Part shown: positions 25,774 to 30,896 of the stretch, in pieces | How positions within the stretch are numbered: position 1 is the first letter of the stretch | How the letters are laid out: the number at the start of each line of letters is the position of its first letter | Source: a virus | DNA: 30,896 nt | Direction: 5' to 3' (one strand) | IMG/VR virus record: IMGVR_UViG_3300042563_002192 | Span: 1 to 30,896 of that record | Made by a program: the position numbers and the translations under genes | The notes under the pieces: generated by a model | Told to the model about the DNA's origin: nothing | The model's database searches: none | What the model saw: only the letters and a program-made list of their open reading frames with translations

Positions 25774-25938
25774 TTAGGCAGTTGCCAGAATGAACTGTGC
25801 GATTTTAGCGGGTGTTCTTAGGTATCCGCCGTATTTGATGCCATCTTCGATTTGGGCGTCTGTGAAATTGAAACCTCCTTTGGTGAGGCGTGCTTGGATT
25901 TTTTTGATGAGGGCGAGGTGTTGGTTGGTGTCGGACAT
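25774..25938 (-). CDS. small protein from a leaderless mRNA
   Basis: 54 aa: MSDTNQHLALIKKIQARLTK, then GGFNFTDAQIEDGIKYGGYL and a short end (RTPAKIAQFILATA). The ATG at 25938 is decided by the promoter: the -10 TATTGT ends 6 nt before it, so the predicted first base is the A of ATG. The longer in-frame version lacks a plausible start. No family is recognised. Confidence 0.6.
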   Translation of the reverse strand: MSDTNQHLALIKKIQARLTKGGFNFTDAQIEDGIKYGGYLRTPAKIAQFILATA

Positions 25939-25944
25939 GCGCGA

Positions 25945-25972
25945 ACAATACGGATTACTCCCCCCATTGCAA
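25945..25972 (-). promoter_or_regulatory. early promoter, A-tract TTGCAA, leaderless
   Basis: The minus strand carries AAAAAAAAC then TTGCAA (25967-25972), a 16-nt spacer and TATTGT (25945-25950). It matches the promoter at 24.43 kb in A-tract, -35 box and spacing. Confidence 0.6.
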
Positions 25973-25999
25973 GTTTTTTTTTCATTTCCTCGGTTGCAT

Positions 26000-26332
26000 C
26001 TATCCCGGCGCGTCATCGCTGGAATTGCGGGCGTTGGGTTTTCTTTTCTTTGGGTGGAGTCTCAATTTGATGGCACCGGGCGTGCGGTTCATCACCATCC
26101 CGATCTCGGCAGGCGCGAAACCAGCCCATGAAAGTTTTTTGGTGATTTCGTTCCTTTCGTCGGGGTAAACGCTCCGGTGCGTTGATCTGATTGCCTGCGG
26201 GTCAATTTCCGATGATGCGCAAATCCGCAAAAACTCGCGCTCGCATCGGCTTTTAGGCGGCGTCGGAACGTGTTCAAGCCTGCGTTTTAGCTCGGTAAGC
26301 AACTCCTCGGTTGTGGCGGTTTCTAGGCTCAT
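26000..26332 (-). CDS. HTH-containing small protein
   Basis: 110 aa from MSLETATTEELLTELKRRLE. The segment KKLSWAGFAPAEIGMVMNRT (about residues 66-85) plus PGAIKLRLHPKKRK is HTH-like with a basic end, comparable to sigma-4 or DnaA-type DNA-contact helices. It lies directly after the 126-aa gene and after the replication genes. Confidence 0.55.
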   Translation of the reverse strand: MSLETATTEELLTELKRRLEHVPTPPKSRCEREFLRICASSEIDPQAIRSTHRSVYPDERNEITKKLSWAGFAPAEIGMVMNRTPGAIKLRLHPKKRKPNARNSSDDAPG

Positions 26333-26339
26333 GATCTGG

Positions 26340-26720
26340 TTATTTCCTCGGCTGAATCCATCCGGGCGCGTCCTCGTCATCCTCGCGCAATTCTCGCGGC
26401 TCGGCTTGGCTTTTGGCTGCCTCTCCCACATCCGGCATTGTCGCCCCGTGTGCGCGATTCTGGGTGGGCAATTTGGCCTCTAGCGCCCGAATGACAAGCG
26501 TGTGGATTTCATCCGGTGCAATTTTCGCGGGAGCAGCTAACCGGGCGAGGGTGTTCCATATGCCAATCGGCACGGATGCGCCACGTTCCCGCCATCGTTC
26601 CCGGCATTGATCCGGGTTGCCTCGTTTCAGTTCCGCCACGAATCCGGGAAGTTCATCGGGCGAGTATTTCGCCAGCACTTGCGCGGCGATTAGGAGGGCT
26701 AGGGCGCGGGGTTCTTTCAT
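26340..26720 (-). CDS. hypothetical protein after the loader gene
   Basis: 126 aa. The N-terminal 80 residues are helical (ALALLIAAQVLAKYSPDELP; LKRGNPDQCRERWRERGASV). The C-terminus is acidic and basic, low-complexity (EPRELREDDEDAPGW). No family is recognised. It overlaps the loader stop by 4 nt, so it may assist replication. Confidence 0.55.
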   Translation of the reverse strand: MKEPRALALLIAAQVLAKYSPDELPGFVAELKRGNPDQCRERWRERGASVPIGIWNTLARLAAPAKIAPDEIHTLVIRALEAKLPTQNRAHGATMPDVGEAAKSQAEPRELREDDEDAPGWIQPRK

Positions 26721-27358
26721 GGTCTTCCCCTGTGCGATGTTCCGGTGATTTCGATAATCCCGCCAGTCTCACGCATCCGGTCCGCGATTGACTCACCAAG
26801 CGAGGCAACCAGCGCATCCGGCTTTGCGTTGGCAATAATGATCGTGGGAATCATCGCGGCGTAGCGGCGGTCAATTACGTGGTTGAGGATTCGATCCTCC
26901 CATGGCGTCCCCCCGCGCTCCTGTGCCTCGTCAATCACCAGCATGGGCGCGTCAACCAAAGCCTTCACAACCCGCTTCTCGGAATCGCCCTTGGCGTCCA
27001 TCGCCGCCCTCGCGTCGAGAAAAACCCCCATGGCCGTGACGTAGAGGGCAAGCGGTTGGTGATCCTTGGCCGCTTCTGCCGCGTGCTGAGTCTTTCCGGT
27101 GCCGCGGTTCCCGATGAGGCAACAAATCCCGCCGGCGGCGATAATGGTGCAAATCCGGGCGTGCGTGGTTTCCCACTCGCCAGCGGGACGGTCAAATGCG
27201 CGGATGTAGCGTTTTTCCCATCCGTTCGCGCGGGATAGCGGCTTGCGTTCTTCCGTAGGGCGGAACGGCTCCCTTACGGCGATTTGCGGAGTCGGTAGCG
27301 AGGCGATGCGTTGCAGCGCGGCGGTGATATGTTCGGCGGTGTCGATTGGTTCGCTCAT
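26717..27358 (-). CDS. DnaC/IstB-like helicase loader (lambda P analogue)
   Basis: 213 aa AAA+ protein. The Walker A motif is LIGNRGTGKTQHAAEA (P-loop GNRGTGKT at 83-90) and Walker B is MLVIDEAQER (Asp143-Glu144). A sensor-like IIIANAKPDALVASLGESIA and the arginine-rich IADRMRETGG end follow, the usual DnaC/IstB pattern. The preceding gene is a winged-helix initiator with iterons, so this is likely the loader that brings host helicase to the phage origin. It overlaps both neighbours by 4 nt. Confidence 0.8.
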   Translation of the reverse strand: MSEPIDTAEHITAALQRIASLPTPQIAVREPFRPTEERKPLSRANGWEKRYIRAFDRPAGEWETTHARICTIIAAGGICCLIGNRGTGKTQHAAEAAKDHQPLALYVTAMGVFLDARAAMDAKGDSEKRVVKALVDAPMLVIDEAQERGGTPWEDRILNHVIDRRYAAMIPTIIIANAKPDALVASLGESIADRMRETGGIIEITGTSHRGRP

Positions 27359-28089
27359 GGCTTGGATTGTGGTTTGTCGAATCGTGAGGTGTCGAAGTCT
27401 GCGAGGTTGAAAGGGCGCTCGGGGTATTCGTTGGCTTTCTTGGCTTCGCGGTGGTCGGCTGAGCGCTCGCTTTGCTTGGCCTCAAAAATCCCCGTCCAGC
27501 CGTGCATTATGGAATTGTTGATTGCGGCGATTGCGCGGGCTTCCCCAATCTTGGCGAATTGGGAAAAGCTCTTTCGGACTGATAGCGGCGTGATCTTTTT
27601 GCGAATCTCCTTTCGGTGGTCGATCCAGTCTTGCCACGCTTGGCGAAACTCATCGGACTCAAACGGAAGGGTGATTGCGTCAATAGATTGGGTTCCCTTA
27701 TTGGTATCCCTTATTGGTATCCCTTCGTGGGTATCCATTTGGGTAGACCCTTGGGTATCGGATTGGGTAGACCCCCCGGTATCCATTTGGGTAGGGTATT
27801 GGATTGGGTAGGGTATTGGATTGGGTAGGGTTTTGCCGTTCATTTTTGGAATCAAAACACTCGTTTGCCCCGCTCTTTTTTGCACCTCAATCCACCCCAT
27901 GCGCTCCAATTCCGCCACGGCTTTCCTTGCGGATTTAATGTTGATGCGGCAAGTCTCTGAAATGGTTTTCGCCGCTGCCCAGCAATTCCCTTCCCCGGCC
28001 CGTCGGCAAATATGAGCCAGCACTCGGAACGCCACGGGGGAAAGCCCAGCTTCGTCAATGGATGAGTGGATGAACATTGGGGATGGCAT
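27355..28089 (-). CDS. winged-helix replication initiator (lambda O-like)
   Basis: 244 aa. The N-terminal winged helix (FRVLAHICRRAGEGNCWAAA, about 21-40, then TCRINIKSARKAVAELERMG) is followed by a repetitive linker (residues 89-135, PIPYPIQYPTQMDTGGSTQ) encoded by the iterons. The C-terminal domain contains KKITPLSVRKSFSQFAKIGE. As with lambda O, the origin-like repeats lie inside the gene. The gene stands behind an attenuator-type leader: the terminator U-tract ends 10 nt before this ATG. Confidence 0.75.
   Translation of the reverse strand: MPSPMFIHSSIDEAGLSPVAFRVLAHICRRAGEGNCWAAAKTISETCRINIKSARKAVAELERMGWIEVQKRAGQTSVLIPKMNGKTLPNPIPYPIQYPTQMDTGGSTQSDTQGSTQMDTHEGIPIRDTNKGTQSIDAITLPFESDEFRQAWQDWIDHRKEIRKKITPLSVRKSFSQFAKIGEARAIAAINNSIMHGWTGIFEAKQSERSADHREAKKANEYPERPFNLADFDTSRFDKPQSKP
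27698..27829 (-). repeat. iterons inside the initiator gene, candidate replication origin
   Basis: Five 17-bp copies of YCTACCCAAWSSRATAC lie at 27813-27829, 27796-27812, 27779-27795, 27755-27771 and 27731-27747, spaced 17, 17, 24 and 24 bp. Two 13-bp GGGATACCAATAA copies follow (27711-27723 and 27698-27710). Lambda has iterons in gene O in the same way. Confidence 0.65.
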
Positions 28090-28098
28090 TGCAGGGTT

Positions 28099-28170
28099 AA
28101 AAAGGATCGCCCCTGAACGCGCTCAAGTCTGACCGATCCCAACGGGACCGCATGAGCACGCACAGGGGCG
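28099..28170 (-). terminator. leader terminator before the initiator gene
   Basis: The 5' arm CGCCCCTG (28163-28170) and 3' arm CAGGGGCG (28108-28115) form an 8-bp stem, then ATCC and TTTTT (28099-28103). The 47-nt loop contains another hairpin, GGTCCC / GGGATC, and the segment TCGGTCAGA (28128-28136). Confidence 0.65.
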
Positions 28171-28227
28171 CATTGATGGATGATGGTAAAAGCATTTCGG
28201 TCAGATCGAAAGCATCGCAACCGCGAC
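28099..28227 (-). ncRNA. attenuator-type leader RNA 2 (about 129 nt)
   Basis: From the predicted start (~28227) to the U-tract. A 5' hairpin (TTTCG / CGAAA) exposes TCTGACCGA (28197-28205), a perfect 9-nt complement of TCGGTCAGA inside the terminator loop (28128-28136). The pairing crosses the terminator stem, so the two are probably alternatives. The architecture repeats that of leader RNA 1. Confidence 0.6.
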
Positions 28228-28233
28228 GCAGGA

Positions 28234-28261
28234 ATAGTAGCTCAAAGGCGGGACAAGGCAA
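28234..28261 (-). promoter_or_regulatory. promoter of leader RNA 2
   Basis: TTGCCT (28256-28261), a 16-nt spacer and TACTAT (28234-28239). The block GTCCCGCCTTTGAGCTAC is shared with leader RNA 1's promoter (15 of 16 core bases identical). Confidence 0.65.
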
Positions 28262-28276
28262 CTATTTCGTCGGAAA

Positions 28277-28537
28277 TCATGGGCTCAATTCCTCCAATTT
28301 TTGAAGCGCCGATTCAAGGCTTGGCCTAGTCCAGCCAAGTGATCCCCATTGCGCGTTCGATGGCGGGTATTCTGCGGGTGGGATTTGATTCCCGGCAATC
28401 GTCATCCCGTTGTGGGATTGCACGTAGAAAACCTCGCAAGACCCGTGGCGTGACTCGCGGGCGATGGCGATATTGTCGCGGCGGTGAATCACTTCAAACG
28501 AGTAGCCGTTCTTTTGGTAGTGAGTGAGTTTGTTCAT
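28277..28537 (-). CDS. hypothetical protein downstream of attenuator 1
   Basis: 86 aa from MNKLTHYQKNGYSFEVIHRR; the ATG lies 8 nt after the terminator U-tract. It is beta-rich (DNIAIARESRHGSCEVFYVQ; GMTIAGNQIPPAEYPPS) with a C-terminal helix. No family is recognised. The gene is short and stands alone between two leader-RNA modules, so it may be the main target of attenuator 1. Confidence 0.6.
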   Translation of the reverse strand: MNKLTHYQKNGYSFEVIHRRDNIAIARESRHGSCEVFYVQSHNGMTIAGNQIPPAEYPPSNAQWGSLGWTRPSLESALQKLEELSP

Positions 28538-28544
28538 GGGTATC

Positions 28545-28619
28545 AAAAAACCCCCAGTCCTTCCCCGACTTGTTGGAACCCCATGAATGAAAATGGGCAA
28601 GTAGGAGGAGGACTGGAGG
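28545..28619 (-). terminator. leader terminator before the 86-aa gene
   Basis: An 11-bp stem, CCTCCAGTCCT (28609-28619) with AGGACTGGGGG (28551-28561), including one G-U pair, runs directly into TTTTTT (28545-28550). The 47-nt loop carries further pairs ACTTG / CAAGT and CCCAT / ATGGG. Confidence 0.8.
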
Positions 28620-28677
28620 CTGTTTGTTTGGTTTTCATTCGGATGCGTTGTCTGCGGGTTCCAATCCGTGCTCAGAC
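28545..28677 (-). ncRNA. attenuator-type leader RNA 1 (about 133 nt)
   Basis: Two 5' segments are complementary to the terminator loop. TTGGAACCC (28656-28664) pairs with GGGTTCCAA (28573-28581), and GAATGAAAA (28632-28640) with TTTTCATTC (28585-28593). The two duplexes nest, giving an 18-bp antiterminator-like helix that would compete with the terminator. The 5' region also folds as GTCTG / CAGAC. This resembles attenuators and the P4 CI and P1 c4 RNAs. Confidence 0.65.
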
Positions 28678-28683
28678 GCGGTT

Positions 28684-28711
28684 ATTGTAGCTTAAAGGCG
28701 GGACGGGTCAA
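28684..28711 (-). promoter_or_regulatory. promoter of leader RNA 1
   Basis: TTGACC (28706-28711), a 16-nt spacer and TACAAT (28684-28689). Together with the promoter at 28234-28261, 23 of 28 bases are identical, including the spacer. It lies just after the methyltransferase stop. Confidence 0.7.
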
Positions 28712-28726
28712 GGGGTGGGGTGACAA

Positions 28727-29704
28727 TCAGTCGAGTCCAGCAAGCAGCGGCACCTCTTCCATGAGTCGGCCCTTTGCGGCTTCTTCGCAGTTGCGGACGG
28801 CTTGGCGGAAGTATGCTTCTTTTAGTTCAATCCCGATTGCCTTGCGCCCGTTGAGAATCGCGCCGTAAGCCTCGCTGCCAACGCCAAGGAACGGCGTCAA
28901 CACCACCTCGCCGGGGTTGCTCCAAAGGACGCATGCCCGCTCGATGACGTCGAGTTGGAGCGGGTGACAATGTTTCTCATCGTCATGCTCGGTTGCGCAT
29001 CGGTAAGGGAGGGTGTGGTCAATGCGGATGTCATCCCAAAAGGCGTCGGCGTATCGCCGCCAGATCCAATGTGAAAAGCGGTTTTTCTTCTGGTCGCCCT
29101 CCATGCCTTTTAGGTGGTGAAGCTCGGCTGGCATTTGCTCCTCTCCAGCATATCGGTGAAGCCCGGTCGGGTGAGCAACTGGCACTTGATTCTCCCCGCT
29201 TCGACGAAAGATAAGCAACTGATCCGCGTTTGCCATGCTGCAACGGGTCGAGTCCTCGCAGCATTGTTTGTGCGCCAAACTTTTCATCATTGTCCGGTTG
29301 CGGACGGTCAGCGGCTCTTTCCATATGAAATAACGGTGGGTAAACCTCCATCCGTTGCGCTCATGGGCGCGGATGATGTCGCCGGGGAAATCAACAAGTG
29401 AATCGCATCCGCTGTTTCCGGTCGGGATGTCCATGCAATGCACGGCAGACATGCGCCCCGGTTTGGTCAGGCGGTGAAGCTCTTGAATGCAGAACTCGTA
29501 ATGCTCGAAAAACTCGTCACGGTCGATGCAATTACTCATATCACGCTCGTCACTGGAATACTGATAAAGTCCAGCAAACGGGGGAGAGTAAACCGAAAGG
29601 TCAACGCATTCATCCGGCAGGGTTTTCATCACTTCAACGCAATCACCGTTGTAGATGGCGTATTGATCTTCGATTACTTGGTCAATGTATGTTTCTTGGC
29701 TCAT
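28727..29704 (-). CDS. orphan DNA methyltransferase (beta class, N4/N6)
   Basis: 325 aa. The catalytic motif IV is DLSVYSPPFAGLY (SPPF at 40-43). The SAM-binding motif I is TPFLGVGSEAYGAI near residue 273, with NGRKAIGIELKEAYFRQA behind it; motif IV before motif I defines the beta order. The TPF replaces the usual DPF. No restriction nuclease gene adjoins it, so it probably protects phage DNA or regulates replication or packaging. The leader CTCCAAACAACCAAACCA has no Shine-Dalgarno sequence. Confidence 0.85.
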   Translation of the reverse strand: MSQETYIDQVIEDQYAIYNGDCVEVMKTLPDECVDLSVYSPPFAGLYQYSSDERDMSNCIDRDEFFEHYEFCIQELHRLTKPGRMSAVHCMDIPTGNSGCDSLVDFPGDIIRAHERNGWRFTHRYFIWKEPLTVRNRTMMKSLAHKQCCEDSTRCSMANADQLLIFRRSGENQVPVAHPTGLHRYAGEEQMPAELHHLKGMEGDQKKNRFSHWIWRRYADAFWDDIRIDHTLPYRCATEHDDEKHCHPLQLDVIERACVLWSNPGEVVLTPFLGVGSEAYGAILNGRKAIGIELKEAYFRQAVRNCEEAAKGRLMEEVPLLAGLD

Positions 29705-29723
29705 TGGTTTGGTTGTTTGGAGA

Positions 29724-30896
29724 TTAAATGAAAGATGGCATTTTGGGTTTCACATGGCGAATCACCCGCTCCTCAATAATGGCGCGGTGCATATTAGCTA
29801 CAAGCTCGGCAAACATTTCATCGGCTTGCGCTGCTTTTCTGCCCATGTTTTCTTTCACGCGCAATTCGCCTTCACTGGCGATGATGTCAACGGTTACGGG
29901 TCTTTTCTGGCCGAATCGGTAGCACCTTCGCACTCCCTGATAGTATTGCTCATAACTGTGTGTTGCAAACGTGACAACGTGGTTGCAGTGCTGCCAATTA
30001 AGCCCCCATGCGCCGATTTTCGGCTTAACGATAAGGACTCGATGTGATCCGTTAGCGAATCCCTCGTAAGCTGCTTCCTTTTGGTCGTCGGTGTGTCTGC
30101 CCGCAACTTGGATTGATCCCGGAATCATGCTTTCCAGCAAGTCCCCTTCCGTGTTGTAATGACACCAAATGACGGCGGGCTGGTCGTGATTCACAAGGTT
30201 CGCGGCGGCTTCACATCGCTCTTTTAGCGTTCGCCTCCGCTCATCACGCTCCTCCGCAAGCCCAAATGCTGGCATAGTGAAAAGCATTCCCTCCGGTGGT
30301 TTCTCTGGCGCAAAAACATGCTCCCGCTCGATAAGCCCGGGCAGGTCATATCCTTCATCAGAAAATCCAAGATCGGAGGGACTGCGGCAAGCTCGTGACC
30401 ATGATGCAACCCACCGCCAAAAATGTTCGTGTGCGTGACCTTTCAAGCGCCATCCGTTGATTACCTGAGATACCCGGAATGACAGTTTGCCGAAATGATT
30501 CGCTTGTTTTTCCAGTCGTTCAATTTTCTTGGCGTATGCGTCTTGGCCTTTTTGATCCATCTGCTTGAAAAACATTTTCAGCATTTCCGAGTGATTCAAT
30601 TCCCCCAATGCCTCGGATGATGTTCCAAGCTCGGTGAAATCGTTTGGCGCGGCGGTGGCAGTCCACAAGCTGCGGAACGCCATCTTGTTTGTAAAGCGGG
30701 TGACAGCTTTCTGAGTTGCTCCCTTAACGTGCTTCAAAATTGAAGATTCATCACAACAAACCCCCGCATAATCGGAGGGGTCGAACAAGTGAAGTTTCTC
30801 GTAGTTGGTGACTGTGATCGGCGCGGTGACCCTGCCATCCAATGACCTTGCGGCTTCCATGCCAAACCTTGCGGCCTCGGCTACGGTTTGCGCTCC
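29724..30896 (-). CDS. SNF2-family DEAD-like helicase, N-terminus beyond window
   Basis: About 390 aa visible, open to the right edge. ICCDESSILKH-like motif II (CCDESSILK), motif III TATAAPN, and the C-terminal RecA-like domain are present. The latter has VIWCHYNTEGDLL, RVLIVKPKIGAWGLNWQ and the arginine-finger motif QGVRRCYRFGQKRPV. These are hallmarks of SNF2 ATPases, which translocate on duplex DNA. The Walker A motif lies outside the window. In phages such proteins are found in replication and anti-defence regions; the exact role is unknown. Confidence 0.85.
   Translation of the reverse strand, partial: GAQTVAEAARFGMEAARSLDGRVTAPITVTNYEKLHLFDPSDYAGVCCDESSILKHVKGATQKAVTRFTNKMAFRSLWTATAAPNDFTELGTSSEALGELNHSEMLKMFFKQMDQKGQDAYAKKIERLEKQANHFGKLSFRVSQVINGWRLKGHAHEHFWRWVASWSRACRSPSDLGFSDEGYDLPGLIEREHVFAPEKPPEGMLFTMPAFGLAEERDERRRTLKERCEAAANLVNHDQPAVIWCHYNTEGDLLESMIPGSIQVAGRHTDDQKEAAYEGFANGSHRVLIVKPKIGAWGLNWQHCNHVVTFATHSYEQYYQGVRRCYRFGQKRPVTVDIIASEGELRVKENMGRKAAQADEMFAELVANMHRAIIEERVIRHVKPKMPSFI

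Follow-up and report, generated by a model that had tools for sequence, protein, structure and literature searches.

A putative family of kissing-terminator leader RNAs ahead of replication and other early genes in uncultured phages

In the isrK-orf45-anrP locus of Gifsy-1, transcription from a single phage promoter either terminates, giving a short RNA, or reads through to give an mRNA; the small ORF located downstream of isrK (orf45) and the gene after it are coupled in translation, and RNA pairing decides translation, IsrK being a trans activator of its own read-through mRNA (PMC4825925). In phages P4 (CI RNA, seqA/seqC) and P1/P7 (c4 RNA), short complementary blocks lie within the regulated transcript of a replication or early operon, and a block covers a translation start. 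The ribosome-dependent attenuators of the trp and his type carry a leader ORF ahead of an intrinsic terminator. In repY-repZ of the IncI-alpha plasmid ColIb-P9, a pseudoknot activates translation of the replication initiator, which is controlled by an antisense RNA transcribed from the other DNA strand.

Two leaders found on the minus strand of an uncultured phage, together with their homologues in related phages, would bring together three devices that usually occur separately. One is an intrinsic terminator, another a pseudoknot between loop and bulge, and the third a leader ORF running through the terminator up to a replication gene. As in the IsrK system, a short terminated RNA and its read-through product, with a small ORF next to the gene, are predicted here, in this case from sequence; unlike orf45, the leader ORF starts before the terminator and crosses it, and the pairing is a kiss between a hairpin loop and a bulge. 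The leaders resemble those of P4 CI and c4 in carrying short complementary blocks within the transcript of replication or early genes, one of which covers a translation start in three members, but the target blocks are upstream and the complementary blocks lie inside the terminator itself; unlike in P4 CI and c4, nothing in the sequences points to processing of an antisense RNA. A leader ORF coupled to a replication initiator and a pseudoknot between a hairpin loop and a distal segment are also features of repY-repZ, the primary papers on which are listed in PMC10724649; here, pairing of the loop with a distal downstream segment was found by covariation, and the pseudoknot, unlike that of repY-repZ, includes the terminator hairpin. 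A simple scan, which is a weak test, gave no opposite-strand promoter-like site in the leader region. Finally, the leader ORF precedes an intrinsic terminator in trp and his attenuators, whereas here it spans the whole terminator, with no regulatory codon run and no antiterminator overlapping the stem.

The DNA analysed (hereafter the window) is the whole public virus record IMGVR_UViG_3300042563_002192, of 30,896 bases, which probably represents part of a phage genome and encodes a terminase, a capsid protein, a DnaC-like loader, an O-like initiator and a helicase. The relatives of its terminase, found in 25 of the 388 Verrucomicrobiota genomes (the sole phylum searched in that way), point to a host that probably belongs to this phylum. 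Most genes of the phage (minus-strand genes) lack a Shine-Dalgarno sequence and their starts follow unstructured A/C-rich stretches.

Leader 1 (minus strand) is preceded by a promoter, TTGACC-16-TACAAT (28684..28711, with the -35 at 28711-28706 and the -10 at 28689-28684), that has the top score among only five sigma-70-like sites in the region 20-30.9 kb. Its 19-base core, GTCCCGCCTTTRAGCTACWAT, recurs exactly once, ahead of leader 2 (0 expected by chance). A transcript starting where this promoter suggests would give a terminated RNA of 133 nt (28545..28677). The 5' hairpin of this RNA, P2, reads CGG-AUUGGAAC-CCG (28655..28668) and carries block a (UUGGAACCC); its terminator hairpin, P3 (28551..28619), is directly followed by U6 (28550-28545). 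Block a (TTGGAACCC, 28664-28656) is perfectly complementary over 9 nt to a' (GGGTTCCAA, 28581-28573), and block b (GAATGAAAA, 28640-28632) to b' (TTTTCATTC, 28593-28585), the two pairings being nested; within P3, b' (UUUUCAUUC) lies in the apical loop and a' (GGGUUCCAA) in a 3' bulge. An earlier sequence-only reading had described the promoter, the 133-nt RNA, the terminator with its U6, the ATG at 28537 and the two nested 9-nt complements to the terminator loop, and all of these are present. In dinucleotide shuffles of the 5' part of the leader, a 9-bp match arises with the a' region in 0.18% of cases and with the apical-loop region in 0.84%, and both together in 0 of 5,000. The 86-aa gene that follows (28280..28537) is an orphan, the single relative found being a diverged one (52% identity) in the related phage G006.

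Leader 2 (28261-28097, minus strand) lies ahead of the O-like replication initiator (27355..28089; phrog_678, E 5.8e-25). Its promoter, TTGCCT-16-TACTAT (28234..28261), shares the core with that of leader 1. The P2 hairpin UUUCG-AUCUGAC-CGAAA (28195..28211) carries block a (UCUGACCGA, 28205-28197), whose 9-bp complement a' (UCGGUCAGA, 28136-28128), reached in 0.16% of shuffles, is located at the 3' bulge of P3 (28108..28170); the latter is followed by AUCC then U5, as would befit a weak terminator. The sequences of the two leaders are unlike, and what they have in common is their anatomy: the loop of P2 is complementary to a bulge in the 3' arm of P3. In its upstream part (28677 region), leader 1 also pairs with the bulge region of leader 2 (28136-28128) at -11.6 kcal/mol, almost as well as in its own cognate pair, which possibly reflects cross-talk or chance.

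At least nine distinct leaders of this kind were found, two in the window and seven in related uncultured phages. Leaders 1 and 2 recur in only one other record, L003 (IMGVR_UViG_3300042463_000788), without a single difference over 760 bases, so that this copy is of no use for covariation. In G006 (IMGVR_UViG_3300042564_001565), whose terminase is 72% identical, an HNH-nuclease gene is preceded by a diverged leader 2 (L028:15554-15684). A covariance model built on these two leaders, with the kiss left out, retrieved a leader upstream of an HNH gene in G002 (IMGVR_UViG_3300012347_000406; E 6e-4), in which the kiss UGAGACC/GGUCUCA is present. In the same way, a model of leader 1 and G002 deprived of the kiss retrieved a leader preceding an O-like replication gene in G411 (IMGVR_UViG_3300032309_000989; E 1.9e-5), with the kiss GUUGAAAGC/GCUUUCAAC. 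When the anatomy was searched for in 1.39 Mb of relatives' DNA (134 loci), all the above leaders came up again, as did four more (L022/L024, L043/L044/L053, G423 and G430), G423 and G430 being homologous by sequence (nhmmer E ~1e-9). The kiss between P2 loop and bulge occurred in 15 of the 44 strong hairpins lying before TTTT and a nearby gene start (nine distinct leaders) and in 4 of 318 hairpins elsewhere; the reversed-sequence control gave 6 kiss matches in total, one of them with a gene start. Since five of the nine members (G411, the L043 and L022 groups, G423 and G430) were recognised by means of a descriptor in which the kiss is obligatory (G411 being found without it as well), the unbiased support is that of leader 2, G006, G002 and G411 together with the control rates.

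The sequence-only reading had assigned to leader 1 the control of the 86-aa gene; this is incomplete, as leader 2 precedes the replication initiator and the homologous leaders precede HNH-nuclease, replication and other early genes. The 86-aa gene was also considered as a conserved target and rejected, its G006 homologue having no detected leader upstream. As regards the conserved aptamer nucleotides that a metabolite riboswitch would have, sequence conservation among the only nine members is confined to GCGTC, AATG and AACAGCCTYC within one subclade. Apart from the genuine copies, pattern scans with the motifs of leaders 1 and 2 gave nothing but coding sequence or coincidental matches, and an R1 match in a Verrucomicrobiota genome (L125) is due to chance, its P3 region being unmatched. 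No similar leader DNA was found in isolate phages, nor any member in stretches of up to 20 kb of distant Verrucomicrobiota prophages (terminase ~30% identity). Searches of the window and the seven homologous loci against Rfam 15, at gathering and permissive thresholds, gave nothing relevant, the only gathering-score matches elsewhere in them being one tRNA and one abiF RNA. The family, absent from Rfam, is a candidate control element not catalogued before, and the hosts of its phages belong to a group that has received little study.

In all nine leaders, the loop of the 5' hairpin P2 pairs over 6-9 bp with the 3' bulge of P3. The letters of the kiss change in every leader and complementarity is kept; the loop/bulge code is specific to each leader, even within one phage, whose two leaders have unlike codes. 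Covariation in homologous phages, on which the sequence-only reading had made its own proposal depend, was found. In the alignment of leader 2 with G006, 28 of 28 pairs are kept and 10 are changed on both sides, including four of the six kiss pairs; 0 of 500 shuffles reach this level, and a slide of one column leaves less than 50% paired. Between G423 and G430, all 29 pairs are kept and five are changed on both sides. Cognate loop-bulge pairings have a mean of -10.6 kcal/mol versus -6.1 kcal/mol for permuted partners, and 0 of 200,000 permutations are as good. A second pairing, between the linker and the apical loop of P3, exists in leader 1 and G002 (GAAUGAA/UUCAUUC) and in G411 (UGAUGAA/UUCAUCA, two doubly changed pairs); this b/b' pairing is absent from leader 2 (apical loop GUU) and from G006 (apical loop CUU). 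As leader 1 and G002 share the apical loop and read it in different frames, it is kept as RNA. Owing to this covariation, the structure predicted from the sequences (P2, P3, the kiss and a position just before a gene start) is near certain, and the earlier proposal, in which the leader RNA is structured and terminated and its complementary blocks have a function, is supported.

The position of P3 between promoter and gene, where it ends 11-24 nt before the start codon, is that of an intrinsic terminator. The hairpin is accompanied by U5-U7 at or adjoining the base of the stem in leader 1, G002, G411, L043, G423 and G430, and the U tracts are weaker in leader 2, G006 and L022. In leader 2 and G006, a 4-nt gap precedes a short U tract, and termination may be weak there. 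From these sequences, we strongly infer that most P3 hairpins are intrinsic terminators. The segment a' sits in the 3' bulge and its edge, above 15-20 bp of P3, and leaves the basal stem untouched in all nine leaders; it is mostly unpaired in P3 (mean unpaired probability 0.71-1.0). The linker between a and P3 is 24-42 nt long, unstructured and mostly A-rich. With at least 24 nt, it could span a helix of about 20 bp and, because the partner of the loop lies in a bulge outside the stem, the kiss and the terminator could coexist as a pseudoknot.

In five of the nine leaders, including both leaders of the window, an AATG in the linker opens an ORF of 29-42 codons across P3, the stop of which is located 0-7 nt before the next start or overlaps it. 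That of leader 1 (28543..28638, 31 codons, MKTKQTASSPPPTCPFSFMGFQQVGEGLGVF) crosses the terminator and stops 5 nt before the next ATG; its start codon is held by block b (GAAUGAAAA, 28632..28640), the partner of the P3 apical loop, a point missed by the sequence-only reading and seen likewise in G002 and G411 only. That of leader 2 (28097..28195, 32 codons, MLLPSSINAPLCVLMRSRWDRSDLSAFRGDPF) stops 7 nt before the ATG of the initiator (28089), and that of G002 (MNTIQTASKSLASRVFIPRVSLARGLGVF) is recognisably similar to the leader ORF of leader 1. The linker itself resembles the gene starts of this phage, which are unstructured, A/C-rich and mostly without a Shine-Dalgarno sequence. As 14% of the upstream ATGs in these genomes have such a stop/start spacing, the five stops out of five that lie at the next start are suggestive of coupling rather than proof. 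The ORF is missing from the leaders of L043, L022, G423 and G430; it is therefore a feature of one subgroup and, being absent in four of the nine members, cannot be a universal route of unlocking.

With moderate confidence, these elements can be regarded as kissing-terminator leaders, in which a pseudoknot-locked terminator keeps early genes off unless it is read through, probably via translation of the leader ORF. The following model could be drawn. Transcription would start just ahead of P2, continue into the linker and produce the strong hairpin P3 last; the P2 loop, inserted in the 3' bulge of P3, would hold the linker against the P3 stem, forming a pseudoknot. The default state would be off, the majority of transcripts ending at P3, which would also mask the start region of the gene. 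A ribosome starting the leader ORF before closure of the lock would melt P3 and allow the polymerase, then translation, to proceed into the gene. Once closed, the lock would silence the leader ORF; in leader 1, G002 and G411, the apical loop of P3 would in addition pair with the start-codon region. The steps that we infer here are the efficiency of termination, the lowering of read-through by the lock and the use of leader-ORF translation as the unlocking signal. Such leaders would offer a testable case as to whether intrinsic termination is tuned by tertiary contacts, and one of a control of phage replication by RNA only, without a repressor protein.

The same pairing might instead operate in trans, a possibility to which we give a minor weight. 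The accumulated short RNA would bind, through its P3 bulge and loop, the P2 loop and the start-codon region of new leader transcripts, whether these come from the same phage or from a sister that superinfects. The leader ORF would be blocked and transcription made to terminate; this would provide immunity or a copy-dependent brake, as for P4 CI and P1 c4, or have the opposite sign, as for IsrK. The loop/bulge codes are indeed leader-specific, with two unlike leaders in one phage, b holds the start codon of the leader ORF in leader 1, G002 and G411, the leaders sit before replication or early genes, and precedents exist (PMC4825925; PMC12197685). Moreover, the 9-mers of the blocks occur nowhere else in the window and their sole 9-nt complements there are the leaders, so that the only target within the window is the leader itself. 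However, intramolecular pairing should beat intermolecular pairing, and the kiss has not diverged clearly faster than the P3 stem, as neutral compensated drift predicts. It is unlikely that these are orthogonal RNA codes in the full sense, by which a terminated RNA would recognise only its sister transcripts via the kisses of loop with bulge and start-codon region, silence the leader ORF and end transcription. If true, lock-and-key immunity or copy-number codes would control replication in this phage group, with two per genome here.

The sequence-only reading had spoken of an antiterminator, and a classical cis attenuator would have a/a' (and b/b') form first and permit read-through, any block of this pairing leading to termination. 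The 106-nt prefix of leader 1 does fold with all 18 pairs (-21.5 kcal/mol), and the pairing partner emerges just ahead of the 3' arm of the terminator, which it could delay. This alternative is nevertheless improbable. An antiterminator must share a strand with the terminator, and an alternative helix sharing a strand of the stem was found in none of the nine leaders: a' is in an open bulge in all of them, overlaps none of the 15-20 basal pairs and does not compete for a strand. In addition, leader 2 and G006 are devoid of b/b'. Folding of 28677-28545, which had been proposed as a check, gave the expected terminator (-47.8 kcal/mol), but the 18-bp alternative appeared in the prefix only; as the full-length RNA prefers the terminator by about 26 kcal/mol, the alternative modelled in this way would be transient at most. 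Last, a small RNA that is stable and serves as a structural element or a decoy, for example multimerising through kisses like the phi29 packaging RNA or binding a protein, and whose read-through is incidental, is very improbable: the compact 5' hairpin, terminator and pseudoknot would fit a stable RNA, and the kiss code of packaging RNAs also varies between phages, but the element is always 11-24 nt ahead of a gene start, is present as two different copies in one phage and, in five members, has a leader ORF linked to the gene that follows.

Other features of these genomes deserve mention. A TTGACAC(C)CGCC-like motif recurs about 20 nt upstream of several gene starts, both in the window (start codons 11526, 9855, 19760 and 14450, minus strand) and in G006 (L028:15150 and 15524). 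It possibly represents a class of phage promoters with very short leaders, and the promoters of the leaders bear a variant of it. The region 25922-30896 of the window is 99% identical to L003, including the 760 identical bases of the leader region, versus about 92% for the remainder, which suggests a replication module exchanged recently. In some relatives (L011:552-788, also L010, L012 and L014), an additional 215 bases or so, which look like a small ORF, separate the genes of the small and large terminase subunits. Finally, the abiF RNA mentioned above (RF03085, 43 bits) lies in G002 (L114:18556-18592) and may be the marker of a phage-carried abortive-infection gene.
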